Program-made: the position numbers and the translations under genes
The notes under the pieces: generated by a model
Told to the model about the DNA's origin: nothing
The model's input: the letters and a program-made list of their open reading frames with translations, nothing else
The model's database searches: none
Shown here: positions 28,429 to 61,327 of the stretch, piece after piece
Layout of the letters: each line of letters starts with the position of its first letter
Numbering within the stretch: position 1 is the stretch's first letter
Assembly: GCA_947643165.1 (NCBI GenBank)
Contig: CANRVB010000005.1
Location: 1-64,000, forward strand
DNA length: 64,000 bases
Direction: 5' to 3'
Source of the DNA: an uncultured Porphyromonadaceae bacterium
Lineage (GTDB): Bacteria; Bacteroidota; Bacteroidia; Bacteroidales; Muribaculaceae

Positions 28429-31400
28429 TCAGATGATCGAGTTCAGAATATGGAGTTTGCCATCGGCTATAAGTTTTATGATAAGTTCGCCGAACAGGGA
28501 GTTCTGCCATGCGAACCAGGGCCGTGTGAAGTTTGAGGCATCGTTGCGCGAGAATGATTCGTGCATGAATCCTGTGCCGCTGTCGGTATTCATCAGTTGG
28601 ATTATGCAATCTCTTATCTCATTGTCATCGGTCGATGTGAATGCTCTCATCATTATGCTCATCGGCCATATCATCTCCACTCCTATATGTGGTCCACCGA
28701 TACCTTCGCCGGCGATTCCCCGCCAGAACCAGGGATTGCTGTCGCTTAGCACAAAACGGCGTGTGTTGCGGTATATCGGGTCATCTATATCCACGTCACC
28801 AAGATAGGGTATCGCAAGCAACGATGGAACGTTGGCATCATCCATAAGCAGATTGCTGCCGAAACCATCTACCTCGTAGGCATAGATCTTGCCGAATTCG
28901 GGATGATTGACCACGGCATGCTTCTTTATGGCTGTCTCGACCTCATCGGCCAGGCTGAGGCACTCTTCGCTGAGTTTCTTGTTGCCGTTTACTTTATCGA
29001 GTATTTCGGCAGCTTTGCGTAGAGAGGATACAGCCATGAAGTTGGAGGGTATGAGAAATCCGAAAGTCGTTGCATCGTCAGAAGGCCGGAATGCACTTGC
29101 TATCAGTCCTACCGGACGTACGGGACTGCCGTGGCCTACATGGCTGCGGGTGTCGAGCTGACGGTCGGTGACGCGCAGAAATATGTAGTCGTCTGGACCA
29201 TCCTTCATCTGTTGGCGTTTCATAGTGGTGAGCATCTTGCCTATGGCCGATTCCCACTCTGGTCCGAACACCGATGTGTCGCCGGTGGTTTTCCAATATT
29301 CATGAGCCAGACGGATAGGGTAACAGTGGGAGTCGAGTTCCCACTTGCGTTCGAACACCCATGGATCTTGTCGCATGCCCGGATAGTTTACATCCTCTCC
29401 CATTCCGGTAGGTCCATCGTTGAAAGCGTTGGCATATGGGTCGATATTGATAAGCTGAAACTGTTTGCCGATAAGACCCGCAATCATTCGGCGCAGTTTC
29501 TCGTCCTTACCGCATAGTGACATGTAAGGCCATACCTGAGCGCTTGAGTCGCGGAGCCACATGGCCGGTATATCGCCGGTATATACGTATGTCTCCACAC
29601 TGTCGCCCGATTCACGGAAATGCACGGTTGTGTCAAGTGTGTTGGGATAGCAGTTGGTAAACATCCATTGCAGTCGCGGGTTGGTCAGCAGTCCGGTTAT
29701 GCTGTCGATCATGTTTTCAACTGCCTGTGAATAAAACAACCGGCTTTTTTCAGCCGGTCGTTCGTTATTGTAAGCTTCTGGTTCATCAGCGTTGTACCAG
29801 AGTTTAGGTTCACTGCCCATTTCAAACTTAAGTTCGCCACCCGACATCAGGTCTTCGTGCGTTATATAAGGTTTGGTATAGGCTTTGCCGTTTAGCCATA
29901 CACGTTGTATGTATCGGTTGTCGGGCGAGTTGTTCTCAGCTATTATCTTCATTGTGCCTCCGGGCAACTTTATCTCAGCTTCGTTGAACAGCGGGCTTCC
30001 GAACCAATACCGTCCGCCGGCGGGTTCCACTTCATAGAATCCCATGGCCGACATGATGTACCATGCCGACATCTGGCCTACATCCTCATTGCCCGACAGT
30101 CCGTCGGGAGCTGCATGATACAGGTCGGTCAGTACGGTTCTTATCTTGTCGGCAGCTTTCCATGGCTGACCGAGCATGGTGTACATATACAGGATATGGT
30201 GGCTCGGCTCATTGCCGTGGGCATACTGACCTATGAAACCGGATATGTCGGGAGAAGCATCGCCATCGACCTGCGAGCTTACTATGAACAGTGAGTCGAG
30301 TTTCTCAATCATGGCTTCACGCGAACCGAAGCATTCTGTCAGGCCCTTCACATCGTGAGGAACGAGCCATGTGTACTGCCAGGCATTACCCTCACAATAG
30401 TCATCGGCACGGTGTGACGATGAATAAGGATTGAACGGTGTACGCCATCCGCCTTTGCTGTCTCGTCCGCGTATAAATCCGGTTGTCGGGTCGAAATAGT
30501 TACGGTAAGAATGGCTGCGGTTTCTGAAATATTCCTCATCGGCTGTTTTGCCAAGAACTTTTGCAGCGTTGGCTGCTGCGCCGTCTGCCAATGCATATTC
30601 CATGTCGAAGGCAACCGCCTCGTTGAAGCTGTCGCATGGTATGTATCCTCGGTCAATACGGAATCCGTTGCCACGGCCACGGTTCATCGCTGTGTTCTTG
30701 ATGGCTTCGAAAGCACGCTCTTTATCCACGCCTTCGATATTCTTCACAATTGCATCGGCAACTGCTGGAATACCGGGATTGCCCACCATACAGTCGGTCT
30801 CGTTGCCCCAGAGATGCCATACAGGGAGACGTCCCTGTTTGTCATTTATGTCGAGCATGGTGTTGATGACGTCCGGAGTCATTTCTGGCTGTATGATAGT
30901 CATGAGAGGCATAGCCGCACGATAGGTATCCCATAGCGAGAACGTTGTGTAGCGCGGATCCTCGTTCACATCGCTGAACAGCGAGGGTGCCACCATCGTG
31001 TGGTAGAGAGCGGTGTAGAACACCTTGCGGGCGTCTTCGTCATCAGTGTCGATATTGATCTTCGAGAGCTGGGAATTCCACAGATCCTTGGCATCTGCAC
31101 GTACCTTGTCGAAATTCCAGCCGGGCAATTCCGCGGCAAGATTCTTCTCTGCGCCCTCTATGCTGTTGGCCGACAGTGCGACCTTCATCATCACTTCCTC
31201 GCCTTCGGTTGTCGTGAAGTTGAGTCGGCCGTACTTGTCGTTGATCACCTCCAGTTGCATTGGCTTGGAGAATTCGGCGCAGAAGTACACGCGCTGGTCG
31301 TTTGCCCATCCCTTTGAATGACGCCAACCTATCACGGTGCTGTCGTTTTTCTGCTCTATGTGAGTGTCGGTTGCTTTGTCCCAGCAGCCGCCGTTCTCAA

Positions 31401-31929
31401 GATCGAATATAATCGCAGCCTCATCTGATGCCGGGAATGTATATCTGTGCATGCCTACACGTGGGGTTGCTGTAAGTTCGGCATTTATGCCATATCTAAG
31501 CAGCGGAGCCGAATAATAGCCTGGTTCGACTATCTCTTTGGCGCGGCTTGTATATGACCACAGACCCGATTCCTGATCGCTTTCTTCTCCGCGGCTATAG
31601 GTCACCTTGCCGATAACCGGCATGACTGTTATGTCAAACAGATCGCCGATGCCGGTGCCCGACAGGTGGGTATGCGAGAACCCTATCACTGTGGAATCGC
31701 CTTCGTGATAGCCGGAACACCAGTCCCATGTCTGCGGTATGCTGGTAGGGCCGAGTTGTACCATGCCGAATGGCACATTGGCTCCCACAAACACATGCCC
31801 GTGACCGCCACTGCCTATGAGCGGATCTACATATTGGGTGTAGTCCTTGCTTTCAGAAGAGCTTTTGTCGGCTGTGGCACAAGCAGTAGCCATAAGTGCC
31901 AGGGCCGGTATCAATAACTTGCCTTTCAT
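28429..31929 (-). CDS. GH92-GH125 fusion: two alpha-mannosidases on one chain
   Basis: 1166 residues beginning with a probable lipoprotein signal (Cys17 in MATAC). Residues 20 to about 715 are a full GH92 exo-alpha-mannosidase: YVDPLIGSGGHGH, the acid motif GNEPSHH and the base motif GNEDVGQMSAW. After a short linker (about 715-735), residues 735-1166 are a full-length GH125 exo-alpha-1,6-mannosidase: GDIPAMWLRDSSAQVWPY, a tract holding FERKWELDSHCYP, and GGPHIGVEMIWPMS. Both halves keep their signature residues. As last gene of the operon it overlaps the upstream GH92 by ATGA. A surface or periplasmic enzyme that clears alpha-1,2/1,3 and alpha-1,6 branches from N-glycan or mannan is the natural reading. 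Confidence 0.9.
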   Translation of the reverse strand: MKGKLLIPALALMATACATADKSSSESKDYTQYVDPLIGSGGHGHVFVGANVPFGMVQLGPTSIPQTWDWCSGYHEGDSTVIGFSHTHLSGTGIGDLFDITVMPVIGKVTYSRGEESDQESGLWSYTSRAKEIVEPGYYSAPLLRYGINAELTATPRVGMHRYTFPASDEAAIIFDLENGGCWDKATDTHIEQKNDSTVIGWRHSKGWANDQRVYFCAEFSKPMQLEVINDKYGRLNFTTTEGEEVMMKVALSANSIEGAEKNLAAELPGWNFDKVRADAKDLWNSQLSKINIDTDDEDARKVFYTALYHTMVAPSLFSDVNEDPRYTTFSLWDTYRAAMPLMTIIQPEMTPDVINTMLDINDKQGRLPVWHLWGNETDCMVGNPGIPAVADAIVKNIEGVDKERAFEAIKNTAMNRGRGNGFRIDRGYIPCDSFNEAVAFDMEYALADGAAANAAKVLGKTADEEYFRNRSHSYRNYFDPTTGFIRGRDSKGGWRTPFNPYSSSHRADDYCEGNAWQYTWLVPHDVKGLTECFGSREAMIEKLDSLFIVSSQVDGDASPDISGFIGQYAHGNEPSHHILYMYTMLGQPWKAADKIRTVLTDLYHAAPDGLSGNEDVGQMSAWYIMSAMGFYEVEPAGGRYWFGSPLFNEAEIKLPGGTMKIIAENNSPDNRYIQRVWLNGKAYTKPYITHEDLMSGGELKFEMGSEPKLWYNADEPEAYNNERPAEKSRLFYSQAVENMIDSITGLLTNPRLQWMFTNCYPNTLDTTVHFRESGDSVETYVYTGDIPAMWLRDSSAQVWPYMSLCGKDEKLRRMIAGLIGKQFQLINIDPYANAFNDGPTGMGEDVNYPGMRQDPWVFERKWELDSHCYPIRLAHEYWKTTGDTSVFGPEWESAIGKMLTTMKRQQMKDGPDDYIFLRVTDRQLDTRSHVGHGSPVRPVGLIASAFRPSDDATTFGFLIPSNFMAVSSLRKAAEILDKVNGNKKLSEECLSLADEVETAIKKHAVVNHPEFGKIYAYEVDGFGSNLLMDDANVPSLLAIPYLGDVDIDDPIYRNTRRFVLSDSNPWFWRGIAGEGIGGPHIGVEMIWPMSIMMRAFTSTDDNEIRDCIIQLMNTDSGTGFMHESFSRNDASNFTRPWFAWQNSLFGELIIKLIADGKLHILNSII

Positions 31930-34172
31930 TTTTCTTCAAGTTCAAAATCCAGTGAGCCGCTGTTAATCAATTCATCATGACTTACACGGAACTTGGAGTA
32001 TGGTTTATTATTCAGTTTTATTTGCTTGATGTATCCGTTGCCCGATTTCGATATATGGAGAGTGCCGTCGGCTGTATCTACCTCGATCTCATCGAACACC
32101 GGGGTCGTGAGTGTGTAGTATGGTTCACCCGGGCAGTCGGGATACAGTCCCATCATCGAGAATACCGCCCATGCCGACATTGTACCAGTATCGTCATTTC
32201 CCGGAATGCCATCGGGCTTTGTTGTGAAATACTTGTCAAGCAATTGGGCCACGGTCTTCTGTGTGCGCCATTCTTCACCCTTGAACCGGCTGAACAGATA
32301 GGGATATGCTATGTCGGGTTCGTTGGCTGGATCATAAAGTCCATCATCGAATACCATCTGCAGCTTGTCGACAAACTTGCGTTTGCCACCCATCAGTTTG
32401 CTGAGACCTTCTACATCGTGTGGTACATAGAATGTATAGTTCCAGGCCGATCCTTCGTGAAATCCTGGTACGGGTTCGAAGTTCTCACCTTGGCGTGGGT
32501 CGAATGGAGTAAGGAACTTTCCGTCCGGAGTGATAGGACGCAGGGTTCCGCTCTCCTTGCTGTAGTAATGCTTGTAGCCGGCAGCGCGCTTTTTGAGAGT
32601 GTCGGCAAAGGCTATATCGCCGCGTTCGCGTGCCAAAGCCTCAAGGGCATTGTCGGCAACGTAATATTCCAATGCGTGTGATACGGAGTTGTCACCGGAA
32701 TTGTCGCCGGCATAGAATCCCAGAGGAATATATCCGAGATTCACGTACGGATCTATATCCGGACGCATCACATTATCCTTGCCCGGAGTAGTGGCCGATT
32801 TTTTCATACCCTCGTATGCGGCATCAATGTCGAAATCGCGTATGCCCTTTCGCCATGTGTCTACTATGACAGGTATGGCAGGATCACCCTCCATAGTGAA
32901 TGTCTCGCGGCCATAAAGTTCCCATTTGGGCAGCCAGCCCCATTCCTTATACATATCGACCATTGTCCGTACCATGTCGCGCTGCTTCTCAGGATATACC
33001 AGAGTGAGCAGTTGATGCAGGTTGCGGTATGTGTCCCAAAGGGAGTATACAGTATAGTGGTCGTAGTCAGACTTGCCTACGGCTCCGCTGCGTTCCATTA
33101 TAGGATACTCACCGTTCACGTCGCTTATAAGATTCGGGTGTATAAGTGCGTGGTAAAGACCGGTATAGAAAACAGTCTTCTGGTCGTCGGTCCCTCCTTT
33201 CACGCGTATGCGCGACAGGGCATCCTTCCATGATCCGCGGGCGCTGTCATATACGCTCTTGAATGTTGATCCGGCGGGTTGCTCCTTGTCGAGGTTCATA
33301 CGGGCGTTTTCAATCGACACATACGAGATGCCTACGCTTACGTCGACGCTCTCACCGGCAGCCAGATTGTCGAAGGTATACCAGTAACCTATATCATCAC
33401 CCGACATTTCGCGTCCGTACGAAGTGTAAAGTTTGTAGGAAGCGTTATCAGGTGTCCATTCGGCTTCAACACCGGTCATGGGACGCTGATATTTGTAGTA
33501 ACCTTGCGATGATGGAGCTTTCGACACCCGCATTACGAAGTATACGGGAAATACAGCCTGAGGGTTGTAGCAGAACGTGCCAAGCAGCTTGACACCCTCG
33601 ATCTCGGTAGCGCTCACTTTGTGGACCATCGCGCCGGTCTCGTTGGTAAGACCCTCGCCAAGATTGAGGATAATATTGCCTGTACCGCCTTTGGTAAAGG
33701 TGTACTGCTCTACGGAGCTGCGGGGAGTGGCTGTAGCCTCGGCCTTTATGCCATATTTGTCGAGCATCAGCGAGTAGTAGCCCGGCGACGCTGTCTCATC
33801 CGAATAGCGGCTGCCGTAGTTGTGGTAGTCAACATCGAGTTTGCCCGATGTCGCTATGGTGAGCAACGAACCCATATCAGGACAGCCCACACCGCTCAAG
33901 GCGCCATGGGCAAATCCTGTGAAGAATGAGTTGGTATTGTCGTATGGAGTCGACCACCATCTTGCATCCTTGTCATAGGTGTTGTCGTCAGAACCCATTA
34001 CATTGAACGGAACCACCGACATCATGCCGTTTGGCGTCACGGCTCCAGGATTGCAAGTGCCGAAATTTGTGGTTCCGATAAATGGATTGACATAAGTGGT
34101 TACATCTTGGGCAACCGATGTGCCGGCTGTCAGAATGGTGCAGATAGCCAATGCGTTGACCGCTATTCTCAT
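31926..34172 (-). CDS. GH92 alpha-mannosidase
   Basis: 748 residues with a signal peptide (MRIAVNALAICTILTAGTSVAQ). The N-terminal YVNPFIGT and the C-terminal GNDDTGTMSAWAVFSMMG mark GH92, a calcium-dependent inverting exo-alpha-mannosidase family. The acid motif reads NEPDIAYPYLF, different from the GNEPSHH of the neighbouring fusion, so the two GH92 domains probably cut different linkages or flanking sugars. It starts 4 nt after manA and overlaps the fusion gene by 4 nt, so it is firmly inside the operon. Confidence 0.9.
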   Translation of the reverse strand: MRIAVNALAICTILTAGTSVAQDVTTYVNPFIGTTNFGTCNPGAVTPNGMMSVVPFNVMGSDDNTYDKDARWWSTPYDNTNSFFTGFAHGALSGVGCPDMGSLLTIATSGKLDVDYHNYGSRYSDETASPGYYSLMLDKYGIKAEATATPRSSVEQYTFTKGGTGNIILNLGEGLTNETGAMVHKVSATEIEGVKLLGTFCYNPQAVFPVYFVMRVSKAPSSQGYYKYQRPMTGVEAEWTPDNASYKLYTSYGREMSGDDIGYWYTFDNLAAGESVDVSVGISYVSIENARMNLDKEQPAGSTFKSVYDSARGSWKDALSRIRVKGGTDDQKTVFYTGLYHALIHPNLISDVNGEYPIMERSGAVGKSDYDHYTVYSLWDTYRNLHQLLTLVYPEKQRDMVRTMVDMYKEWGWLPKWELYGRETFTMEGDPAIPVIVDTWRKGIRDFDIDAAYEGMKKSATTPGKDNVMRPDIDPYVNLGYIPLGFYAGDNSGDNSVSHALEYYVADNALEALARERGDIAFADTLKKRAAGYKHYYSKESGTLRPITPDGKFLTPFDPRQGENFEPVPGFHEGSAWNYTFYVPHDVEGLSKLMGGKRKFVDKLQMVFDDGLYDPANEPDIAYPYLFSRFKGEEWRTQKTVAQLLDKYFTTKPDGIPGNDDTGTMSAWAVFSMMGLYPDCPGEPYYTLTTPVFDEIEVDTADGTLHISKSGNGYIKQIKLNNKPYSKFRVSHDELINSGSLDFELEEK

Positions 34173-34176
34173 GATC

Positions 34177-35148
34177 TTACTTTATGTAGCTTAACAGTAG
34201 TTTGGCTTTGCCGTCCGGACAGATGCTGTAGCCCTGCGATATGGCTGGGATAAGGATTGTCTCACCGCGCTTCACTACAGTGGTATCACCGTCTTTGCCC
34301 GTAAGGGTGGCGCTGCCTTCAAGGCACATCATCACTACAAACGATTCAACTCCGCTCAGATCAAGATTATATTGTTTGTCGAGCTCCAGCAGATCGGTCG
34401 TGAAGTAGCGGCAGCTTACCAGATTTACAGCCTCGTCGGTCTGTGGGGTGTAATGAGTGCGGTAGTCAGGTTGGACACTGTAGTCGATAGCCGACTTTGC
34501 CAGTTCGGTATGCAGTTCGCGTGGCTTGCCGTCAAGACCGTTGCGGCCATAGTCGTATATACGGTAGGTCACATCAGATGTCTGCTGGATCTCGGCTACA
34601 AACGAGCCGGCACCTATGGCGTGTATACGTCCGGCAGGCAGGAAGAACACATCGCCCGGATGTACCTCATAGTTGTGGAGAACATCGGTGATCTTGCCGG
34701 CCTCGACAAGTTCGCAATACTGATCGGGGGTGATCTTCTCGGTAAGACCTGAGCGCAGATGTGCATCATTGTCAGCATCAACCACATACCACATTTCAGT
34801 CTTGCCGTTCTTGCCGTGACGGGCTTTGGAGAGTTCGTCGTCAGGATGTACCTGTATCGACAGGTCGCTCTTTGCGTCGATAAACTTTATGAGCAATGGA
34901 AACTCATTGCCGTGGGCCGCGTATACTTTTTCGCCCACGAGGCTGCCTTTCAGAGTGTCGATCAGCGCGGGCAGTGTCATTCCGGCGTACTCGCCATCGG
35001 CCACTACCGACTCATCGCCTTTGACGCCTGACAATTCCCAGCTCTCGCCTATGTTCTGCTGTGTGGTGGTTATTCCCTTGTATGGTGCTATTTTGTCGCC
35101 ACCCCATACGAGGGTCTTCAGTATCGGTTTGAACTTAAATGGTTTCAT
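34177..35148 (-). CDS. manA: Mannose-6-phosphate isomerase, class I
   Basis: 323 residues from the ATG at 35148 (an earlier in-frame ATG at 35199 lies inside the kinase gene). A cupin enzyme interconverting mannose-6-phosphate and fructose-6-phosphate. Zinc ligands are in SIQVHPDD and in the EMWYV region, with EVHPGDVFFLPAGRIHAIGAG carrying conserved residues. It overlaps the ROK gene by 14 nt and is followed 4 nt later by GH92. In this operon it passes mannose released by the glycosidases into glycolysis. Housekeeping sugar-nucleotide supply is the alternative role. Confidence 0.92.
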   Translation of the reverse strand: MKPFKFKPILKTLVWGGDKIAPYKGITTTQQNIGESWELSGVKGDESVVADGEYAGMTLPALIDTLKGSLVGEKVYAAHGNEFPLLIKFIDAKSDLSIQVHPDDELSKARHGKNGKTEMWYVVDADNDAHLRSGLTEKITPDQYCELVEAGKITDVLHNYEVHPGDVFFLPAGRIHAIGAGSFVAEIQQTSDVTYRIYDYGRNGLDGKPRELHTELAKSAIDYSVQPDYRTHYTPQTDEAVNLVSCRYFTTDLLELDKQYNLDLSGVESFVVMMCLEGSATLTGKDGDTTVVKRGETILIPAISQGYSICPDGKAKLLLSYIK

Positions 35149-36256
35149 TGGCTTTTTCTTTTTTATCAAGTTCCGATAGAGCGAAGGCGTATGCGCCAAG
35201 CGAGATTGCCTTGCTTGCGCCGAGCTTTGATATGGCCACGCCTATGCGCTTCTGCGGATCATAGCTAACGTAATTGTCTGTCCCATAGATTTTGAGCGGA
35301 CGCATCTCTCCGTGTGCGAACTGGTCGAACTCTTCTTCCGAATCGAGGTCGTAAACTTTCATCTGCATCCGGTCGATTTTGTCGCCGGAGCCGGTGTATA
35401 TCGATGAACGGAGTTCTTCGAAGAGAGCCGGCATGATCCACTTGCGTGCGGCAGTGATTCCACCGCCTATCACGATCAGTCCGTCGACAAGCGTGGCGGC
35501 CGTGGCCATGGCATCGCCCGCTATCTCACCCATCTCGGCAAAAGCGCTGCGTGCGGCTTCGGTGTCGCCGGGACGCTCACCTTCAGCTATATCATAGATG
35601 TCTTTGGGCTCAAGATTGTGATCGGTATCGCCCGACAACTCTCCGTAGACGCGTTTGATGGCACGTGCCGACACTCCTTCCTCCACTATCAGGCGGTGGT
35701 TCTTCTTGTGACGCAGACAATATGTCTCCACACATGAATTGTCGCCACGGTTCAGGGTGCCGTCTATCACCATGCCTATGCCGAAGCCTGTGCCAAATGT
35801 GTAGCCCAGCAGGTTGCGGTATCTCTTCGGGCTACCCTTGGCCTCGAGCTTGGCATTGATCTCGGGGAGCACGCCGCATAGTGCCTCACCATACGCAAAC
35901 AGGTCGCCGTCGTTATTGATGTAGACAGGCAGTCCGAGTTCACGCTCCAGATATGGTCCGAGGGCTACGCCATCACGGAATGAGGGGAAGTTGGGCAGAT
36001 ATCCTCCGATTATGCCGCGGGGATAGTCGGCGGGACCGGGAAAGGCGAAGCTTATCGCAACAGGTTTGCTGTCGAGCTTGGCTATCACTTCCTTGAATCC
36101 TTCGGCCATGGTAGTGAGACACTTGTCGAGGTTGTCGGCGCACGATGGGCGCACTATCGGATCAACGATGAATTCGTTGGCCTGCATGGCGCCGAACACA
36201 AAGTTTGTGCCGCCGGCGTCGAGTGTTATTACGATTCTGTTGTCGTGACGGTACAT
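35135..36256 (-). CDS. ROK-type sugar kinase, probable mannokinase
   Basis: 373 residues. The ATP-binding DAGGTN at 14-19, FAFPGPADY, NNDGDLFAYGE (catalytic Asp) and FGTGFGIGMVIDG are kinase signatures. The usual ROK zinc motif CxCGxxGCxE is absent; the corresponding region reads DNSCVETYCLRHKKNH, so this belongs to a divergent ROK group. Its place between GH130 and manA implies phosphorylation of free mannose to mannose-6-phosphate, but glucose or N-acetylglucosamine, both released by the pathway, are possible substrates. No DNA-binding domain is present, so it is not a ROK repressor. Confidence 0.82.
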   Translation of the reverse strand: MYRHDNRIVITLDAGGTNFVFGAMQANEFIVDPIVRPSCADNLDKCLTTMAEGFKEVIAKLDSKPVAISFAFPGPADYPRGIIGGYLPNFPSFRDGVALGPYLERELGLPVYINNDGDLFAYGEALCGVLPEINAKLEAKGSPKRYRNLLGYTFGTGFGIGMVIDGTLNRGDNSCVETYCLRHKKNHRLIVEEGVSARAIKRVYGELSGDTDHNLEPKDIYDIAEGERPGDTEAARSAFAEMGEIAGDAMATAATLVDGLIVIGGGITAARKWIMPALFEELRSSIYTGSGDKIDRMQMKVYDLDSEEEFDQFAHGEMRPLKIYGTDNYVSYDPQKRIGVAISKLGASKAISLGAYAFALSELDKKEKANETI

Positions 36257-36263
36257 GGCCGGA

Positions 36264-37235
36264 TCAGATATAGGAATTTTCTTTGGTAAATTTGATTATC
36301 TCCGAGATGCGGCCGAAGGCAAGGCCAACGACTGTGTCGGCGGCGCCGTAGTATACGGCTACTTTGTCGCCGTCGGTCAGGGCGGCGCAGGGGAACACTA
36401 CGTTGGGTACGTCGCCCTGAAGTTCGTAGGGGGCTGCGGGCGCCAGGAGATAGGGGCGGGTGCGATAGAGCACTTTGGCGGGGTTCTCGCGGTCGAGTAT
36501 GGCGGCTCCCATTGAGTAACGGAATCCGTTACAGGTAGTTATGACTCCGTGATAGAAGAGGAGCCATCCTTCGTCGGTGAGGATAGGTACGGGGCCGGCG
36601 CCTATTTTGGTGCACTGCCATGCGCTTTCGGCGAAGGGGGTGACTTTCATTACGCAGCGGTGCTCGCCCCAGTACTTCATATCGGGGCTGTAGCTGAGGT
36701 AGATATCGCCGAAAGGTGTGTGGCCGTTGTCGCTGGGGCGGCTGAGCATGGCATATTTGCCGTCGATCTTCTCGGGGAGCAACACGCCGTTGCGGTTGAA
36801 GGGGAGGAATGCGTTCTCACACTGGTAGAACTCCTTGAAATCGAAGGTGTAACCTATTCCGATGGTGGGACCGTCGCAGCCGTTGCACCAGGTGATCCAG
36901 TAGCGGTCTTCTATCCAAACGACTCTGGGGTCGTATTTGTAGTCGGAGCGGATCATGTCGGTGTTGCCGGGTTTGAACTTTATGGGTTCGTGCTCTATCT
37001 GCCAGTTTATGCCGTCTTTGCTGAATCCGGCGAATATGTTCATCTGTACGGCTTTGTTGTCGCAGCGGAATACTCCGGCGAATCCGTCGCCAAAGGGTAC
37101 TACCGCGCTGTTAAACACGCTGTTGGATGTGGGGATGGCGTAGCGTCCTATGACGGGGTTCTTGGAGTAGCGCCACATTACGTCGCTGCATCCTTCGGGT
37201 CTTTCTTCCCAGGGTATTTCAACGTGACTGTTCAT
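36264..37235 (-). CDS. GH130 mannoside phosphorylase, probably Man-GlcNAc phosphorylase
   Basis: 323-residue five-bladed beta-propeller enzyme without a signal peptide, so cytoplasmic. [20 protein letters not shown] and the catalytic aspartate in YDPRVVW are GH130 features, as are FPCAALTDG and [15 protein letters not shown] near the end. The length and these motifs fit GH130_2, which includes the Bacteroides enzyme that phosphorolyses beta-1,4-mannosyl-GlcNAc, the core disaccharide of N-glycans, into mannose-1-phosphate and GlcNAc. Neighbouring alpha-mannosidases and a transporter support that. Mannosyl-glucose or mannan-derived disaccharides are alternatives. Confidence 0.88.
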
Positions 37236-37273: not shown

Positions 37274-38629
37274 TCAGTTGGTTATCTTGTTTCCGTCGTT
37301 ATCATAGCTGAATGGTACGAACCATGTGATGAGGAGGGAGGGGATTGTGGCGAAGAGGACGAAGATGAAAAATGGTGCGAAACCGCCTGGTGCGTTGAAC
37401 CATACGCCGAATTTTTCGCAGAGTGCGCCGCTCATCATTCCGGGCAGCATGACGCCCAGATTCATTATTCCGGAGGCGAAAGCGTAGTGTGCCATCTGGT
37501 GTTTTCCGGGTGCGATCTGTTGCATCATGAAGAGTGTAAGTCCCACGAAGCCAAAGCCGTAGCCGAAGTATTCGAGGGCTATGCCGCCGCATATGAGCCA
37601 GGACTGTGTGGGCTGGAGGAGTGCGAAGGCGGTGTAGACGGCGAAGGGGAGGTTGAAGCAGATGCAGAGGCGGAAGAGGGCTTTGCGGAGGCCGATGCGT
37701 TTGATGTAGTAGCCGGCGAGGATGCTGCCGGTGACGAATGCGGCGGCTCCGACGACGCCGTAGTATATGCCAATTGTCTCAACATCAAGGCCGAGGCCTC
37801 CGTCGGCGCGGTCGGCTTTGAGGAGGAGGGGGACGATTTTCATGACGAATCCTTCGGCGAAGCGGTAGAGGATTATGAAGACGATATAGTAGGCTATGTG
37901 CCTCTTAGAGAAGAAGGTAGTGAGGACGGCGACGAGCTCGCGACGGATGTCGGCCATGGTCTTGCGGCCCTGGGTGGCTGTGCGGGGGCATGCGGGGAGT
38001 GAGCGGATGTGGTAGAGGGAGAGGATGACCATGAGGATTCCGAGGGCGGCGATTACTTCGGACCAGGAGTAGATATTTGCCTGATGGACAGCGGTTCCGG
38101 ATGCTATCTGGCGGTTGATGAGCCAGCCGACGATGAATACGAGTCCGCCCTGGACGGCGATCTTGGCGATGTTGTAGAATGCGCCTTGCCAACCTATGTA
38201 AGCTGACTGATTCTCAGGGGTTAAGGCGGACATGTAGACGCCGTCGCAGGCTATGTCGTGGGTTGCGCCGCTGAATCCGATGAGCGCGAGGAGTGCGATG
38301 GAGACGGGGAAAAAGGATGGGAGGAAGAGGGAGAGGGCTACGAGAATGAAGAGTAAACCGCTGATACACTGGGTAGAAACGACCCAGAATTTTTTGGTTT
38401 TCCAGAGTTCGAGGAACGGACTCCAGAGGGGCTTGAGGGTGTATGGGAGGATGATGAGGGAAGTCCAGAGGGTTATCATTGCCATGTCGACTCCGAGTCC
38501 GTCGTACATGAGTACTGTGACCATGTTGAGGGCTATAAATGGCAGTCCCATAGCGAAATAGGCTGATGGTACCCAGGTGACCGGATTTTTGTCCGAGGTG
38601 ATTTTGGTGGATGACGCTTCTGCTTCCAT
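37274..38629 (-). CDS. MFS sugar transporter of the operon
   Basis: 451 residues, about 12 membrane helices, with an N-terminal polar stretch. [13 protein letters not shown] resembles the loop 2-3 signature of AmpG-type transporters, and ATHDIACDG follows later. First gene of the six-gene unit and 38 nt from GH130, it probably brings the beta-mannosyl-GlcNAc disaccharide into the cytoplasm for phosphorolysis. Similar MFS genes sit next to GH130 in Bacteroides. I see no exact TAnnTTTG promoter within 200 nt upstream. Confidence 0.83.
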
Positions 38630-39064: not shown

Positions 39065-42000
39065 TTAATCTTCTACCATACGTATCTGAAGGGCATCGCT
39101 ACCTGACGGGTCAGGAGCAGAACCCCAAACTATACCAGCATTGGTTACATCTGTTAAAGCGAAGTCGAAAGTATAGTAATTGATGTCGAGTATCGGTTTA
39201 GTACCGTCGGCTTCTCTTAGCCAATAGAGAGCTCCTTGGCGGCGGTATAGATCCCAAAACAGCGGTTTGTATTTTACACCATAACTTCCTACGCTTGATC
39301 CGCTCTCGGGCATTGCTGAATAGCGATTGGCGTATTGCAGCACACCTTCGTATCCATTCGCCTGCCTGTTGTATGCGCCATTCGCCAGTTGTTTGAAGCG
39401 TCCGTAACCGCTGTTGCCTATAGGCAGGAAAATGTTCATTCCCGAGATTGAGTCGCAGATGAATACGCCTCTCATGCCTTTGCCTACAGCACTGCCATCA
39501 GGATTGTAGCCATAGACTTTTGAAACAGAAGTAGGGGTTTCAGTCGTACCATCGGTAAAGATGACGCCATAGCCATAGATAGTATTGGGTTGATTGATTA
39601 TGCCTTCCAAATCTGCTTTGCCGGCCATGCGGCACGTTTTTTTATTTATAGTAGTAGTTCCGTTCCAGATGGCTTTGATGGCAGAACTTACTTTGATGTT
39701 TTTCCAAAGTTTGGTTTCGGAGGATCCGGCAATTGCGAAATTTCTTGAAGATGCATTCTTGTCGAACCATGAGCGGTCATTGTTGCTCGCAGCAACAGGG
39801 TAGGTAGGGTTGTACTGGCGGAAGTAGGAACCTTCGAGAGCCGGATCGGAGGCTTCGGTTGTCGCTGTCACAAGGTTGGTGCTATGCCACTTGGCTGATG
39901 ATCCGGGCAGAGGGACAGGATCGTAGCCCTGACGGACAAAGATTCGGTGAATGCAGGAATAGTTGTTGTAATAAATCTTGATGATACCGCCACGGGGGGT
40001 GGATGTAGTACCCTTGGGGCGGAAAGTGAAGTCGATTATAGATCCGGGATTCTTCTCATCGAACGGATCGCCCATGCCTGATACTGTTCCATCAGGATTT
40101 TTTTGCGATATGCCATCGGTCGGCTCGATGTCGAACCAATCGCCCTGTTGAATCACCGCCAACCAGGGACCATCGGAAACGAGGGGCTCAAAATCGGTAG
40201 CGGATTCATAGGGGAGAATCATCATCTTGACATGGAACGGATCGGTACAACCAGCACTGCGCCATATACCCTTAGGATTGACCACACGGCGCATCTGCTC
40301 AATAATGATGTCTTTCTCAACTGTTTGTGCTTCTGTTTTGCCATAAGGACGTATTTTGGCAGTGATATGAACAGACGCACGACGCCGATAGGCTACGTAG
40401 GGGTTGTTTCCGGTATATCCAGTCTGGGCGACCATAACACGGGCACGGGTATAGAACGGAATGTTGGCTATCCACTCACCGTTGCCGTTGTTTATGATGT
40501 CATAGGTACCTTCCGCATCATTTCCTTTATCTATACCGGGAGTAACATCATAGACTCTTTCACCACGTGGCAGTCCTGGATATTTGGTTGAAGTCCCATT
40601 CCAATAGTTGTAATTTTCAGTATAAGTTATAGCGGATCCACTTCCAAAGCCATCTGCTATACTACCGAACTCAGCTCTTGTGGTCTTGACCAGCGATAGG
40701 AAGCCGTTCCATGGGCCGGGATTGTTCGGAACGTTAGCCGAATTATCCCATCCCCAGTAGGGAGCAACAGTCTCCGCCTCCGAAACATCGATGGCGTGCC
40801 AACTGTTGCGGTTGATATCATTGTCGGGTATGGTAGCTTCAAGCGATATGAGTTCGCCTCCCTGTATCTTGATAGGGTATTTCATAGTCTCATCGTAGAC
40901 ATACGAAATATAGTAGGGGCTACGCGCTATGATCTCAGGCTTCATGTCGTAGACGATATGCCAGTCGTGATCGTTAGCATAGCCACGGAGTCTGAGGGTA
41001 AGCTTGAAGTGGTAGTTGCGCTCGGCATCGAAGTTGGTGTCAACATCCTTGCCAAGCATGAAGCGGTAGATGATAGGACCTTCGCCCTCTTTAGAGTTGT
41101 CAGACTTGTAGTAGCCAATTACCTCGATATAGGTACCCGCCACCTGATGGTCTTTGTAGCCCTGGCTGATAGGGCTATTTCCGTCGGGAAATTTGATAGT
41201 ATCACCTTCCCAAACCTGATGTTTGGACTGACCCTCGCCCTGCATATTCTCGTAGAAATAGTATGCGTTGGCGGTCTCGGTGTGAGCGGACTGCATATCA
41301 AGAGGCCATGACCGCTGTTTGGTGACAAGTTCGCCACTCTCGTTGACGCCCTCGGTGCCAAAGGTGGTCTTCTCGCCATCGGAGAGCAGATAGTGGGGCG
41401 AGGGGTGGTGCTCCTTGCCAAGCCAGCAGTAGCGGGGAATGTCGCGTATCTGGATGGATTTGATCCATACCTTCACACCATTGTAGAGGCCAGAACCGTC
41501 GACAGCAACGGTGACCTTGGAGGCAGCACGCTTGACCCAAGCGTGAAGCTTGGTGAGGGTCTTGCCGACAGTAATGAGCGGGGCGTCGAAACCTTGGCTC
41601 TTCTGCTCATCGTAGGCGGTGAAGTAGCCGAACATCTGATCGTTGGCAGATATGTTGTCCTCGTTCCAAGTGAGTTTGACCTCCTTGAGCTTGTCGGGGG
41701 TGTCGAGGTCGGCGTCGGTATATTCGGTGAGATCGCCCATATTTGCCACGGCATAGATATGATATTTGCCGAAGGGGATATTGCCGATGGAAAAGGTGGC
41801 TTTGGGAGTGATGGACTCGGCCTGATGCTCGCCGTGGTCGGTATTTATATCGTCGGGAAGCTGCTTGTTGTTGTTTTCAATCTTAAGGTCCTGCAACTCG
41901 GCGTTTGTGACACGGCGAATGAGCTTGTTGTCGGAACCGTAGATGAAGAGGCAGAGCGACTTGATATGCTTCAAGGCCTCGCCATCGGTGCGTGAGGCGG

Positions 42001-42175
42001 GTCCATCGAGAGGATCGAGCACGGGGCTGAATGTAACTTCAGCCGAGAGTGTGGCCTCGCCCTCGCCGGGATCGTCGTAGAAACTGAAATCATCCTTACA
42101 TCCGGCAAGCACAGCCGCTGTAGCAACGACAGCCGCGGTAAGCAGAAATTTTGTTATGTGCGAAAGAAAAGACAT
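39065..42175 (-). CDS. DUF4906-type lipoprotein, probable pilus tip protein
   Basis: 1036 residues with a lipoprotein signal (LAGC, Cys26). The N-terminal third resembles Mfa/FimB-type folds (KHIKSLCLFIYGSDNKLIRRV); the middle, with KDIIIEQMRRVVNPKGIWRS and an IIKIYYNNYSCIHRIFVRQGYDP block, matches DUF4906 proteins; the C-terminus (IFLPIGNSGYGRF) resembles the fold used by Fibrobacter-paralogous-domain surface proteins. Last gene of the type V pilus operon, where large accessory proteins form the pilus tip. Its ligand is unknown. A 48-nt gap separates it from the FimB-family gene. Confidence 0.75.
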   Translation of the reverse strand: MSFLSHITKFLLTAAVVATAAVLAGCKDDFSFYDDPGEGEATLSAEVTFSPVLDPLDGPASRTDGEALKHIKSLCLFIYGSDNKLIRRVTNAELQDLKIENNNKQLPDDINTDHGEHQAESITPKATFSIGNIPFGKYHIYAVANMGDLTEYTDADLDTPDKLKEVKLTWNEDNISANDQMFGYFTAYDEQKSQGFDAPLITVGKTLTKLHAWVKRAASKVTVAVDGSGLYNGVKVWIKSIQIRDIPRYCWLGKEHHPSPHYLLSDGEKTTFGTEGVNESGELVTKQRSWPLDMQSAHTETANAYYFYENMQGEGQSKHQVWEGDTIKFPDGNSPISQGYKDHQVAGTYIEVIGYYKSDNSKEGEGPIIYRFMLGKDVDTNFDAERNYHFKLTLRLRGYANDHDWHIVYDMKPEIIARSPYYISYVYDETMKYPIKIQGGELISLEATIPDNDINRNSWHAIDVSEAETVAPYWGWDNSANVPNNPGPWNGFLSLVKTTRAEFGSIADGFGSGSAITYTENYNYWNGTSTKYPGLPRGERVYDVTPGIDKGNDAEGTYDIINNGNGEWIANIPFYTRARVMVAQTGYTGNNPYVAYRRRASVHITAKIRPYGKTEAQTVEKDIIIEQMRRVVNPKGIWRSAGCTDPFHVKMMILPYESATDFEPLVSDGPWLAVIQQGDWFDIEPTDGISQKNPDGTVSGMGDPFDEKNPGSIIDFTFRPKGTTSTPRGGIIKIYYNNYSCIHRIFVRQGYDPVPLPGSSAKWHSTNLVTATTEASDPALEGSYFRQYNPTYPVAASNNDRSWFDKNASSRNFAIAGSSETKLWKNIKVSSAIKAIWNGTTTINKKTCRMAGKADLEGIINQPNTIYGYGVIFTDGTTETPTSVSKVYGYNPDGSAVGKGMRGVFICDSISGMNIFLPIGNSGYGRFKQLANGAYNRQANGYEGVLQYANRYSAMPESGSSVGSYGVKYKPLFWDLYRRQGALYWLREADGTKPILDINYYTFDFALTDVTNAGIVWGSAPDPSGSDALQIRMVED

Positions 42176-42223
42176 GGTTTACTGAAGGATTGTTACATTC
42201 TACTCATCTGACTCCGTCAGATA

Positions 42224-43378
42224 TCAATATTCGGGTCGGTTGAGTCCGAAATCGGGGTTAAGAACAACTCCAATATAAGGAACAAGATCGACTTCGCAAT
42301 AGACGCGCGGTCCATGAACGGTGAGGTTTACCTTGACGTGGGTGTTTCGCGGAAGCGAGGGCAGATCGGGGAGGGCTGCGGACAGCTCCACGTCGTCGAC
42401 CTTGAAATTTATGCTATATGGTGTATTGCCTGTGCCGAATGCAGTTTCGGGCAGGTAGACGGTTCCGGTGGAGTAGTGCAGGCGGTCGGTGGTCTGATGC
42501 CATTGCAGAGTGAAGGGGGCTGTCGAGGCCTGCGAGGGGGTGGTGTACTGAGTGATTATGCGGTTCTCGGTAGAAACCGGGGTCTTGGCAGGACGGTACT
42601 CGGTGTCGCGAGGGAAGAGGTACTCCATGTCGGCGATCTCGTTGATGCTGACGGGCTGGACTACCGGGGTCACATCGGCGGGGAGAGTGACATTGCCGTC
42701 GAGCTTGATCTCGAGGTTGAAGGTGAATTTGACGGCGGCGCGGGTGACGAAGAGGTTGAATGTCTGGGGGATGGGGTCGCCGGCGTCGTTGTAGCGTGGG
42801 GTGTTGTCGACGTAGATGTCGTGGAATTCGGTCATGGGGATGGGGTCGGCGTCGGTGAGGAGGGGGGTGTCGGCGTCGGCGCGGGAGAGGGTGTAGGAGA
42901 GGTCGGCGTCGGTGGGGAAGGTGTCGCCGTAGGTGAGGGAGGTGAGGCGCTGCTGATAGTCGGTGGGGAGGGAGGCTTCGTTGCCGATGAGCCAGATGGT
43001 CTTGATCTCGTCTCCGTGGACGCGGTAGCGGTCGGTGGTGGCTGTGGTGGCGGGGGTTGTGGCGTTGTTGACGAGGATGTTGTGCTCGACATGGCCATTG
43101 GGGCGTACGACTATGAAGCGCATGGTGTGGATGAGTTCGTTGGTGCCGTCGGCGCCTTCGAAGCCGTAGTCGTAGCCGTCGGGGTATTGCCCGGCGGGAT
43201 ATTGCTGGTCGGCGCGCGATGCGGGTCCCTGGGCTTCGGTTGTGGCAACGGACAGCTGCAGGTAGACGTCGGGGTCGGGTCGCCCGGGGTCGGGCAGCGG
43301 CTCGTTGCCACTGCATCCGCAGAGGGCCACCACTGCCGATAGCACGGTGAGCAGGTATGTCAGTCGGCGCAGTATCAT
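42224..43378 (-). CDS. FimB/Mfa2-like accessory fimbrial lipoprotein
   Basis: 384 residues with a lipoprotein-like N-terminus (CGC near residue 20-22). The N-terminal domain has the fimbrillin pattern of strands (YLQLSVATTEA, ELIHTMRFIVVRPNG, IKTIWLIGNEA), and the remainder is a second beta domain ending VYCEVDLVPYIGVVLNPDFG. It overlaps the next gene in the operon by ATGA at 43375-43378. It is probably a minor subunit or adaptor between the anchor and the tip. The GC content and the Pro/Thr content are higher than in its neighbours, with long non-coding open frames opposite. Confidence 0.72.
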   Translation of the reverse strand: MILRRLTYLLTVLSAVVALCGCSGNEPLPDPGRPDPDVYLQLSVATTEAQGPASRADQQYPAGQYPDGYDYGFEGADGTNELIHTMRFIVVRPNGHVEHNILVNNATTPATTATTDRYRVHGDEIKTIWLIGNEASLPTDYQQRLTSLTYGDTFPTDADLSYTLSRADADTPLLTDADPIPMTEFHDIYVDNTPRYNDAGDPIPQTFNLFVTRAAVKFTFNLEIKLDGNVTLPADVTPVVQPVSINEIADMEYLFPRDTEYRPAKTPVSTENRIITQYTTPSQASTAPFTLQWHQTTDRLHYSTGTVYLPETAFGTGNTPYSINFKVDDVELSAALPDLPSLPRNTHVKVNLTVHGPRVYCEVDLVPYIGVVLNPDFGLNRPEY

Positions 43379-44397
43379 AGGTCGATGTCGTTAATGCGTA
43401 CTACCCAGTCGTTGATGATGATTGAGGTGTTGATCCAGTGGTCGGCGGAGTCGAGGAAGAATATGAGGTTCCAGCGGCTTTCGCGGTCGAGGAATTCCTG
43501 GCTTCCCATCTGTGCGAATTCCTGGCTCTTGAGGAGGAGGAGGTAGCGGATGAGGGGTATGGAGAGGACGGTTTGGCCGTCGGATGCGCGGGTGATTGTG
43601 AGGGTGAGGGGTGAGCCGTCGACGAAGCGGCTTGAGCTGAACTCGGCGTAGGCGAGGAGATTGGGCGCTGTGCCGTCGATGGTTCCGGCTTCGGCCTGTC
43701 CGCGTGCCCAGGGCATGTAGGTGACTGTGGGGACTGGGAGGAGGTTGTTCTGCCAGTCGAGGTGGGTGTTTTTGGCGGTGAGGGTGTAGTTATAGTCGGT
43801 GTCGATGACGGGGGTTCCGTCGATGTTCTGGAGGAGTATGCGGAGGTTGTTGGTGTCTTTGAGCATGGGGACTGTTGCCTGGCGGTATTCGGTGTCGCTT
43901 TCGAGGACTTCGATGTCGAGGCGTCCGTAGAAGAGGTGGTGGAGGGGTTGTCCGAGTGGCTGTGTGAGGAGCTCGGGCTTGAGGACGAGGCTGAGGTCGG
44001 TGAGGGTTGAGGATGGTGAGGGGGTGGATGTGTAGGCGAATGAGGCTTGGTCGCACTGGATTCCGCCGTATGCGATGATGGTGTATTGTCCGGGGTCGAG
44101 GTCGACGGTCATGCGCCAGTTTTCGTCGGCGAGGACTGAGGATGTTTCGGTGCGTGTGGTGACGTAGCGGCCCTGTGCGTCGTAGAAGTTGACGGTGAGG
44201 CAGCTGACTTGAGAGGGGAATGCGTTGGCAAACTCCATGTTGTAGTCGTAGACGAACCGGAGGACGAGTCCCTGCGGGCAGGGGTCGAGGTCGTCGTAGA
44301 TGACGGAGTCGCATGCGGTGAGTGAGACCGCTGCTATCAGGGCGGCGGCTATGTTGATGATGGAGAGTCGGAGTTTTGAGAGTGATAGTGATATCAT
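43375..44397 (-). CDS. FimB/Mfa2 family fimbrial anchor lipoprotein
   Basis: 340 residues, lipobox LTAC (Cys29), followed by DSVIYDDLDPCPQGLVLRF, the best-known start of Mfa2/FimB proteins, which anchor the fimbria in the outer membrane and limit its length. Two beta-sandwich domains follow. The C-terminus DWVVRINDIDL closely resembles the C-terminus of the major subunit in this operon (DWVVRLNNIEF). The long leader between it and the major subunit gene carries heptamer repeats and a strong hairpin, which may lower its expression relative to the shaft protein. Confidence 0.85.
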   Translation of the reverse strand: MISLSLSKLRLSIINIAAALIAAVSLTACDSVIYDDLDPCPQGLVLRFVYDYNMEFANAFPSQVSCLTVNFYDAQGRYVTTRTETSSVLADENWRMTVDLDPGQYTIIAYGGIQCDQASFAYTSTPSPSSTLTDLSLVLKPELLTQPLGQPLHHLFYGRLDIEVLESDTEYRQATVPMLKDTNNLRILLQNIDGTPVIDTDYNYTLTAKNTHLDWQNNLLPVPTVTYMPWARGQAEAGTIDGTAPNLLAYAEFSSSRFVDGSPLTLTITRASDGQTVLSIPLIRYLLLLKSQEFAQMGSQEFLDRESRWNLIFFLDSADHWINTSIIINDWVVRINDIDL

Positions 44398-44491
44398 AGG
44401 TCTCTGTTGGTGGTGGGGTGGGGGTGTGATATATGTTGTCGTGTTATGCCGTGGTGTGGCATACGGGGATTGTCAAGTTTAGTGGAGGGTT

Positions 44492-44566
44492 GAGAGTGGA
44501 GAGTGGAGAGTGGAGAGTGGAGGGTGGAGAGATAGTTAATAGTGGAGGGTGGAGGGTGGAGAGGGG
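44492..44566. repeat. Tandem GAGAGTG heptamers in the pilus operon
   Basis: Four perfect GAGAGTG units (44492-44519) and one GAGGGTG (44520-44526), then a second cluster of GAGGGTG-like units after TTAATA (44536-44566). The tract lies 95-170 nt upstream of the anchor gene start, on the strand opposite to the mRNA. Confidence 0.85.
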
Positions 44567-44598
44567 TTTGGGGATTTGAGGGAGAGCTTTGGCGGAGG

Positions 44599-44623
44599 GT
44601 TGCCCCGCGGGGCGCGGGGCAAC
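44599..44623 (-). other. Very stable hairpin between the major subunit and anchor genes
   Basis: A perfect 10-bp stem (GTTGCCCCGC / GCGGGGCAAC) with a 5-nt loop, 25 nt after the major subunit stop. No T-run follows on the mRNA strand, so it is more likely an mRNA-stabilising or attenuating structure than a full terminator. Confidence 0.65.
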
Positions 44624-44647
44624 TCCGTCAATAGCTATAAGTGGGGT

Positions 44648-46582: not shown

Positions 46583-46652
46583 TGTGTTGAAAGTGATTGA
46601 TTGTATTTAATATAGATGTTGTTTCGGATGGATGGGGGAGAGGAGGAGGGGA

Positions 46653-48092: not shown

Positions 48093-48111
48093 GATGGTGT
48101 GCTGTTTCCGG

Positions 48112-48702
48112 TTAGAATACGTAAACGAGGTTTAGGGCTGCTTTGGTAGGTCCTACGTAGTTGTGGGGCTTGTTGCTGTCGACTTTTTTGCCGCAAGAGG
48201 CGCAGCGGTAAGTGCTGTAGCGTGTGTAGGCCCATCCGATGCCGATCTCAGCTTCGAGGTTCCAGTGGCGGCTGAGCATCCAGGCGTAGCCGTAGCCGAT
48301 ACCGGCTCCGGCGTACCATCCCTGATAGCGGAGGTCGCGGAGCTTTCGTGCGTCGGTGCCGAGCATGTTCCAGTGTCCGTTGAATCCTCCGATGTTGTAT
48401 TGTCCACCCATTATGTGGAGGGCGAAGAAGTGTCCGCCCATTCTCTCGCAGAGCCAGTAGCGTGCTTCGGGCATTGCGTACCAGTGCTTCCAGCGCCGAC
48501 CGTGGGAAAGGGTCCATGCATTGAGCTCGCCTGTGAGGTCGATTGTCCATTTGGGTGCGAGACCAATCTCGATGCCTGCGTTGGGGTTGAGCAGGCCGTC
48601 GGCTATAGCGTTGGTTTTGATGGCGACTTCCTGTGCGGAGATGCGCGCAGGGAGGCAGATGGAGAAACCGAGCAGGAGGCCGATGAAAAGTTTACGTATC
48701 AT
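48112..48702 (-). CDS. DUF3575 outer-membrane protein of the pilus operon
   Basis: 196 residues with a signal peptide (MIRKLFIGLLLGFSICLPARISA). VAIKTNAIADGLLNPNAGIEIGL is the DUF3575 signature, and alternating aromatic strands to a terminal Phe (NLVYVF) indicate a small beta-barrel. A CASCGKK pair of cysteines could bind metal or form a disulfide. First gene of the pilus operon; its exact part in pilus biogenesis is not known. Confidence 0.88.
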   Translation of the reverse strand: MIRKLFIGLLLGFSICLPARISAQEVAIKTNAIADGLLNPNAGIEIGLAPKWTIDLTGELNAWTLSHGRRWKHWYAMPEARYWLCERMGGHFFALHIMGGQYNIGGFNGHWNMLGTDARKLRDLRYQGWYAGAGIGYGYAWMLSRHWNLEAEIGIGWAYTRYSTYRCASCGKKVDSNKPHNYVGPTKAALNLVYVF

Positions 48703-61224: not shown

Positions 61225-61247
61225 GATGTGGGTATCATTATAAAAAA

Positions 61248-61280
61248 TCAGGGCCGACATCATAATTGTGTCGGCCCTGA
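61248..61280 (-). terminator. Terminator of the tonB-exbD cluster
   Basis: A perfect 12-bp stem (61248-61259 / 61269-61280), followed on the minus strand by GATTTTTTA. It separates tonB from the GH36 gene. Confidence 0.88.
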
Positions 61281-61327
61281 GGTTATGATTCAACTTGGAT
61301 CATAAGAGATCCGGTGTTGTTCGCGGT

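Follow-up and report, generated by a model that had tools for sequence, protein, structure and literature searches.

A GH92-GH125 fusion protein of an uncultured Muribaculaceae bacterium as a likely bifunctional exo-alpha-mannosidase of an N-glycan utilisation operon

What would a protein do that joins two families of mannose-removing enzymes in one chain, and is the joining genuine? The question is raised by a gene in the 64,000-nucleotide stretch analysed here (hereafter the window; positions 1 to 64,000, forward strand, of contig CANRVB010000005.1, GenBank assembly GCA_947643165.1), which comes from an uncultured Porphyromonadaceae bacterium assigned to the Muribaculaceae in GTDB. An initial sequence-only reading had described the product as a lipoprotein in which complete enzymes of glycoside hydrolase (GH) families 92 and 125, both with their signature residues, are connected by a short linker, and had suggested that it could strip a high-mannose branch down to the beta-linked core. 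By our analysis, the protein is likely to be a bifunctional exo-alpha-mannosidase that is secreted, probably with a lipid anchor, and belongs to an N-glycan utilisation operon. Its parts are as follows.

28429..31929, minus strand: GH92-GH125 fusion protein, 1166 amino acids (aa), single frame with ATG start, Pfam
31879..31929, minus strand: signal sequence with probable lipobox Cys17 (residues 1-17), from the sequence, the alignment and the N-termini of fused relatives
31171..31833, minus strand: GH92 N-terminal beta-sandwich domain (residues 33-253), Pfam PF17678, E 2e-74
29812..31155, minus strand: GH92 catalytic domain (residues 259-706), acid E513, base D616, Pfam PF07971, E 1e-167
29764..29793, minus strand: linker, about residues 713-722, from the alignment of fused rows
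28477..29682, minus strand: GH125 domain (residues 750-1151), acid D951, base E1124, Pfam PF06824, E 3e-167

Both the GH92 module (residues 33-706) and the GH125 module (residues 750-1151) are complete within the one chain, with positions 1-464 of the 464-position GH92 catalytic profile covered by residues 259-706 and positions 1-414 of the 414-position GH125 profile by residues 750-1151. Family GH92 is characterised by Ca2+-dependent, inverting alpha-mannosidase activity and family GH125 by metal-independent exo-activity on alpha-1,6 linkages. Counting along pairwise alignments matched E513 and D616 to E535 and D637 of BT3130, and D951 and E1124 to D220 and E393 of CpGH125, for which acid and base roles are described in the available text of PMC5930347 and PMC9425025, respectively. 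Counts of related loci (L numbers) given here cover the best 80, with flanks of up to 6 kb, beyond which farther neighbours may exist. An alignment of 45 rows comprised the window's protein, 29 of the 32 complete fused relatives (leaving aside L007 and L012, with over-long starts, and the near-copy L015), two separate GH125 proteins and 13 separate GH92 proteins, the only ones taken in from the GH92s without GH125. The GH92 acid and base were found in all 43 rows holding that half, and those of GH125 in all 32 rows holding the other, which bears out the initial description of two complete enzymes with their signature residues. Eight pairs of fused genes, picked by hand, gave ratios of nonsynonymous to synonymous substitution rates (dN/dS) of 0.06-0.23 in the GH92 half and 0.05-0.11 in the GH125 half; between the window and L002 the ratio was 0.06 for both, a rough value with synonymous sites near saturation. 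Purifying selection thus acts on both halves.

The N-terminus, MKGKLLIPALALMATAC, resembles a lipoprotein signal with a cysteine at position 17, a column kept in at least 90% of the rows of the alignment. The lipobox, however, is a weak one that carries Ala at -3, and the N-terminus of L002, the nearest relative, is not the same; the lipoprotein nature originally stated is best called probable. At the junction, the GH92 module ends in ...MGSEPKLWY and is followed by a linker of about 10 residues, as short as first described, and by the mature GH125 part from around RPAEKSRLF, with no second signal peptide left there in the alignment of fused rows. Longer linkers occur in 5 of the 30 fused rows (L014, L016, L017, L018 and L030). 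The predicted structure of the whole chain (predicted local distance difference test, pLDDT, 79.7; predicted template modelling score, pTM, 0.73), although weak at active-site loops (e.g., residues 507-513, 559-575 and 947-955), recovered both folds, with target TM values of 0.88 for 7zgm and 0.91 for 3on6. No Protein Data Bank chain matched both halves by sequence, nor did any among the 50 fold matches listed.

Which linkages might the GH92 half cleave? Among solved chains, it scored 591 bits against 7zgm, 568 against BT3130 and 549 against BT3965, compared with 333-337 against BT2199 and BT3990. The closest by sequence as well as by predicted fold (42% identity) is thus B035DRAFT_03340 GH92 (7zgm), a plant N-glycan alpha-1,3-mannosidase that shares with the fusion the catalytic acid and base and the N-glycan setting but, unlike the fusion, is a lone GH92 without GH125; the surroundings of the +1 subsite differ as well, and the xylose-tolerant specificity of 7zgm need not transfer. 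By similarity, then, the fused half is closest to alpha-1,3-type enzymes. Where D642 of BT3990 aligns, which we take to be the second acidic residue of GH92, the fusion carries Asn, as do 7zgm, BT3130 and BT3965. The mark of alpha-1,2-mannosidase GH92s, by the accessible accounts, is a Trp/His/Glu triad (PMC5930347, PMC9522356). Alignments of the fused GH92 contain no such triad and show a Ser-Gly-Thr-Gly (SGTG) loop and Pro560/Asp561 instead; the second triad loop aligns beside gaps, yet lacks the His-Glu pair. Because the triad is replaced, the fused half is unlikely to be an alpha-1,2-mannosidase. The corresponding features (PSPW loop, His-Glu) are present in all seven separate further GH92s checked in relatives, six of which lie after the fusion and one upstream of the MFS transporter gene in genome G191, whereas only two GH92s, the fused and a second one, both without these features, were found in the window's genome (88.5% complete). 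Since the alpha-1,2-type enzyme is separate in relatives and was not found in this genome, the fusion alone would be unlikely to strip a full Man8-9 branch, and Man3-Man5 is the likelier substrate.

The GH125 half gave its best matches among solved chains (652-656 bits) with BT3781 and two Bacteroides ovatus exo-alpha-1,6-mannosidases, and the fold search returned the same proteins, BT3781 (2p0v) and BACOVA_03626 and BACOVA_03347 (3on6, 3p2c), at 62-64% identity. All share the catalytic Asp and Glu with the fusion, but their solved chains, unlike it, have no GH92 half. This kinship supports the alpha-1,6-mannosidase role initially proposed for the half, which is the sole GH125 found in a search of the window's genome.

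The fusion is the last of six genes arranged head to tail on the minus strand, which may be co-transcribed. In that order, the five preceding it are as follows.

37274..38629, minus strand: MFS transporter, first gene of the putative operon
36264..37235, minus strand: GH130 mannoside phosphorylase, closest solved relative UhgbMP
35135..36256, minus strand: ROK-family sugar kinase
34177..35199, minus strand: mannose-6-phosphate isomerase-like protein (manA class I)
31926..34172, minus strand: second GH92, 748 aa, with a 4-base overlap with the start of the fusion

The GH130 protein matched UhgbMP (4udg) with 503 bits over positions 1-322, followed by a beta-1,4-mannooligosaccharide phosphorylase with 429 bits, while the model of the beta-1,2-mannosidase BT3780 yielded 41 bits. 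Similarity thus points to a UhgbMP-like phosphorylase of Man-beta-1,4-GlcNAc (mannose linked to N-acetylglucosamine), the activity ascribed to UhgbMP, also termed an N-glycan phosphorylase, in PMC10619541 and PMC4599007; the available portions of both mention no GH92-GH125 fusion, with which the UhgbMP-like protein here shares an operon. Within the flanks covered, a GH130 accompanies the complete fusion in 22 of 32 loci, and a further GH92 follows it in 21. No SusC or SusD is encoded among the annotated operon genes, the genome itself not having been searched for them, and no match to endo-acting GH76 was found in the window's genome at its 88.5% completeness. For five fused loci and for L022, where GH92 and GH125 are an unfused pair, chosen genes farther out were scanned as well. 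On the opposite strand beside the fused operon, L010 encodes a protein that matches GH18 weakly (30.2 bits against a cut-off of 29.6) and one combining BT_3987-like_N with laminin-G, and L022 has a GH18_BT1044-like gene and two BT_3987-like_N genes nearby. The outer neighbours in L025 and L012 comprise a glucosamine-6-phosphate isomerase domain, GH97 and DUF4838, those in L013 GH97 and FtsK, and those in L007 Rho and an oxidoreductase.

Taken in sequence, the parts suggest the following route. The GH92 half would take terminal alpha-1,3 mannose, possibly others too, off the core branch, and the linear chain thereby left would become open to the branch-intolerant GH125 half, which would then remove the alpha-1,6-linked mannose. 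What results, Man-beta-1,4-GlcNAc or that unit on a longer reducing end, may be imported by the MFS protein and split by GH130 into mannose-1-phosphate and GlcNAc, with the ROK kinase and the manA-like isomerase channelling the sugars into metabolism. A precedent for the two steps is described in the available text of PMC9425025, where XmGH125 is inert on Man3GlcNAc2 until an alpha-1-2,3 mannosidase removes the branching mannose, the two together yielding ManGlcNAc2; the successive activities are those proposed for the fusion, but reside in two separate enzymes. As the branch blocks GH125, an alpha-1,3-type GH92 joined to it would serve such a stepwise dependence. A plausible niche follows from Bacteroides thetaiotaomicron, whose high-mannose locus PUL72 is described as encoding GH92s that stop at a trisaccharide, which is degraded by enzymes from elsewhere (PMC11180146, as far as its text is accessible). 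We favour trimming of the N-glycan core because the closest solved relatives of the GH92 half, which has no alpha-1,2 triad, are 7zgm and BT3130, those of the GH125 half are BT3781 and the B. ovatus enzymes, the GH130 is closest to UhgbMP, endoglycosidase-type genes occur at L010 and L022, and no GH76 was found.

The fused arrangement is not confined to the window's genome, and uniqueness is ruled out by the same single frame in many relatives. In addition to the 32 complete single-frame fusions, the best 80 loci include two that end at a contig end (L028, L033), two with a broken GH125 (L023, L031) and two with adjacent separate genes (L022, L075); L014, L015 and L028 are near-copies. Three complete fusions (L007, L025 and L027) lie in strain-named records not marked as metagenome-assembled genomes (MAGs), the strain-named carriers being Alistipes sp. 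An66, Alistipes muris DSM 112343 and Muribaculum sp. An289. In the Alistipes muris family, a GH125 over the cut-off occurs in 51 of the 200 genomes sampled and the fusion in 16, in each case confirmed as a single frame; a further GH125 is present in 5 of these 16 genomes. The family of Candidatus Cryptobacteroides excrementavium (G691) shows GH125 over the cut-off in 62 of 249 genomes, with, among the copies checked, seven confirmed intact fusions, one stopped by a contig end and two broken. Fused counts for these two families were re-checked frame by frame, since listed open-frame lengths evidently run through a stop. In the window's own family, the fusion was seen in 2 of 297 genomes, namely the window's and G191 (= L002). 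Full-length matches numbered 2/297, 1/393 and 1/395 in the family, order and phylum samples, the window's own genome included each time, and fused copies could be missed in these samples, in which two first-look candidates were scored per genome.

Several observations lie beside these counts. Open-frame lengths of 1252-1290 aa had hinted at more GH92-GH125 fusions, but the eight such places read as open reading frames (L129-L131, L197-L201) all hold the two as separate neighbouring genes. In six of them (L130, L131, L197-L200), GH92 and GH125 are adjacent in one frame with 6-12 bases between them after the stop, and the GH92 there is not the paralogue found in the fusion; such same-frame pairs are a possible route to fusions. 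Copies with the GH125 part in pieces (L023:5878-9471, L031:8252-11538) reflect sequencing error or decay. Other double architectures also exist: a 909-aa GH76-GH125 fusion in the Alistipes muris family (L142:2949-5678, minus strand) joins GH125 to an endo-mannanase-type domain, and in the window's family a protein of 1420 aa (L132:3449-7711, plus strand), another GH92-based double glycosidase, unites GH92 with GH20 and also has an F5/8 type C domain. In L143 (901 aa) and L204 (ending at a contig end), 400-490 residues outside the Pfam scan precede GH125, and GH92 proteins of about 1180 aa adjoining a GH125 gene (L202:382-3930, L203:3271-6801) have about 450 residues without identification after GH92. 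The titles of two records look wrong: L002 and L055 are labelled Paenibacillus sp. and Clostridium sp. (isolates NALB_7961_12 and _38), yet their sequences coincide exactly with parts of genomes placed in the Bacteroidales family of the window.

The history of the joined state was approached through both halves. In a GH125 tree of 78 rows, 37 of them fused, the window and L002 are paired (100/100) inside a clade of 18 fused rows, the rest of which come from Alistipes and its family (100/97). One starred clade without any separate GH125 holds 30 of the 37 fused rows, with the other seven elsewhere nearby, and a single fused clade is not rejected for this half (approximately unbiased test, p-AU 0.21). 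For the GH92 half, it is strongly rejected (p-AU 1e-66), in a set of 65 rows, 38 of them fused, left after 38 of 103 rows had been dropped by hand, 37 of these without GH125. The GH92 tree itself is a 'quick' one of 105 rows, in which two outgroup branches are very long and whose root we do not trust; it has 39 fused rows, among them L023 and L031 with broken GH125 and L028 at a contig end, and its starred branches force at least six changes of the fused state. Such counts cannot separate gain from loss; most simply, they can be read as a single early fusion after which the GH125 module was lost repeatedly, possibly with swaps. The neighbouring PBP1a gene is 68-77% identical to those of six genomes of the window's family and 46-48% identical to those of four fused-gene genomes of other families, and the contig is therefore native, while the operon looks imported, probably from an Alistipes-like donor. 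In G191, the fused gene and PBP1a are on different contigs.

Several points tell against trimming of the N-glycan core. An endoglycosidase-type neighbour was seen in only one of the five fused loci scanned in part (L010), and L007 and L013 end in housekeeping genes. No GH85 was found in a search of the window's genome, 88.5% complete, whose sole GH18 is chitinase-like, with an EndoS match of 21.6 bits, below the cut-off. According to the accessible text of PMC9522356, two alpha-1,3 GH92s have no conserved +1 residues in common, and that of PMC10154615 reports removal of alpha-1,6 mannose by some B. thetaiotaomicron GH92s; for these reasons, sequence does not reliably give GH92 linkage preference. 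Loci with a GH92 and no GH125 in the stretch examined (42 of the best 80) outnumber the fused ones, and the fusion is therefore not required. BT3781, the closest relative of the GH125 half, is grouped with alpha-mannan enzymes in the part of PMC9213526 available. Finally, the two domains need not cooperate.

This last point leads to the alternative that survives best, which is compatible with N-glycan use and competes only with cooperation between the sites: joining may be a convenience of expression and anchoring, with the halves working independently, a view that we hold to be about equally likely to be right or wrong. Separate adjacent GH92 and GH125 genes elsewhere, the eight checked lying in one frame with a stop between, are in keeping with it, as are the repeated changes of the fused state among GH92 relatives and the longer linkers in some fused rows. 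Conversely, the starred GH125 clade, with its 30 fused and no separate rows, indicates that the two modules have stayed together through long divergence. A more ambitious idea is in our judgement doubtful. It holds that Man-alpha-1,6-Man-beta-1,4-GlcNAc, once made at the GH92 site, is handed over to the GH125 site of the same chain before diffusing away. The fusion would then be a natural one-protein answer to the step for which the high-mannose locus of B. thetaiotaomicron relies on other enzymes, and would have been maintained and transferred among families of gut bacteria as one unit together with the phosphorylase.

Rather unlikely, too, is an enzyme for fungal alpha-mannan, in which GH92 would clip alpha-1,2/1,3 side chains and GH125 would then shorten the exposed alpha-1,6 backbone. 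The available text of PMC9213526 lists two GH125s of B. thetaiotaomicron alongside alpha-mannan enzymes, one of them BT3781, and BT3130, a GH92 near the fused half, is described as strongly active on yeast mannan (PMC5930347, in its accessible part). Against such a role stand the lack of a GH76 match in the incomplete genome, a GH130 far closer to UhgbMP than to the BT3780 model and the endoglycosidase-type neighbours at L010 and L022. Still less probable is a fusion that strips Man8-9 unaided through an alpha-1,2-mannosidase half: the GH92 family at large does include alpha-1,2-mannosidases (PMC9522356, in the text available), but the triad is absent from the fused GH92 and present in the separate GH92 of relatives. 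Of the initial proposal, trimming to the beta-linked core, an end point that fits the neighbouring GH130, and the alpha-1,6 role of GH125 are supported, while the alpha-1,2 part of the GH92 assignment and the stripping of a full Man8-9 branch are unlikely. That a lost stop codon or an assembly error merged two genes, the refutation envisaged at the outset, is practically ruled out, for although adjacent in-frame genes with a single stop between them exist (L129-L131, L197-L201), the same complete frame recurs in 32 of the best 80 loci, three of them strain-named and not marked as MAGs, the GH92 of the same-frame pairs is a different paralogue (253-293 bits, versus at least 560 for rows of the fused kind), and the junction has no second signal peptide.

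Other features of the surroundings are noted here for completeness. In the Alistipes loci L025 (3786-5981) and L012 (3800-5992), a DUF4838 protein of about 730 aa lies between a GH92 and the fusion. Upstream of the operon, the window carries a fimbrillin-type cluster (39065-48702; Mfa2, fimbrillin C-terminal domain, DUF3575), which includes proteins of 1036 and 384 aa without a Pfam family over the cut-off, and a GH36-type alpha-galactosidase (melibiase) is encoded at 59032-61293 on the minus strand.

The fusion is a new combination of two well-known families, and its architecture is not unique to the window's genome. The string GH92-GH125 appears in no paper of the literature searched, and broader searches likewise gave neither such a fusion nor a characterised enzyme of this kind, in agreement with the initial impression; CAZy, UniProt and subscription journals lay outside the search. 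The multi-domain GH92 of Neobacillus novalis (7nsn) also places a GH92 in a large multi-domain protein, but its other domains are non-catalytic according to the abstract, whereas the partner in the fusion is a second glycosidase. What emerges is an architecture that recurs in gut bacteria and is apparently uncharacterised, and with it the question of whether removal of the trimannosyl core, where the branch blocks GH125, goes faster when the alpha-1,3 and alpha-1,6 exo-mannosidases are one protein. The protein is a possible one-enzyme reagent for converting Man3GlcNAc to Man-beta-1,4-GlcNAc, which the accessible text of PMC10619541 presents as an immune-activating disaccharide, and related genomes in which GH125 is fused, adjacent or absent provide natural comparisons.

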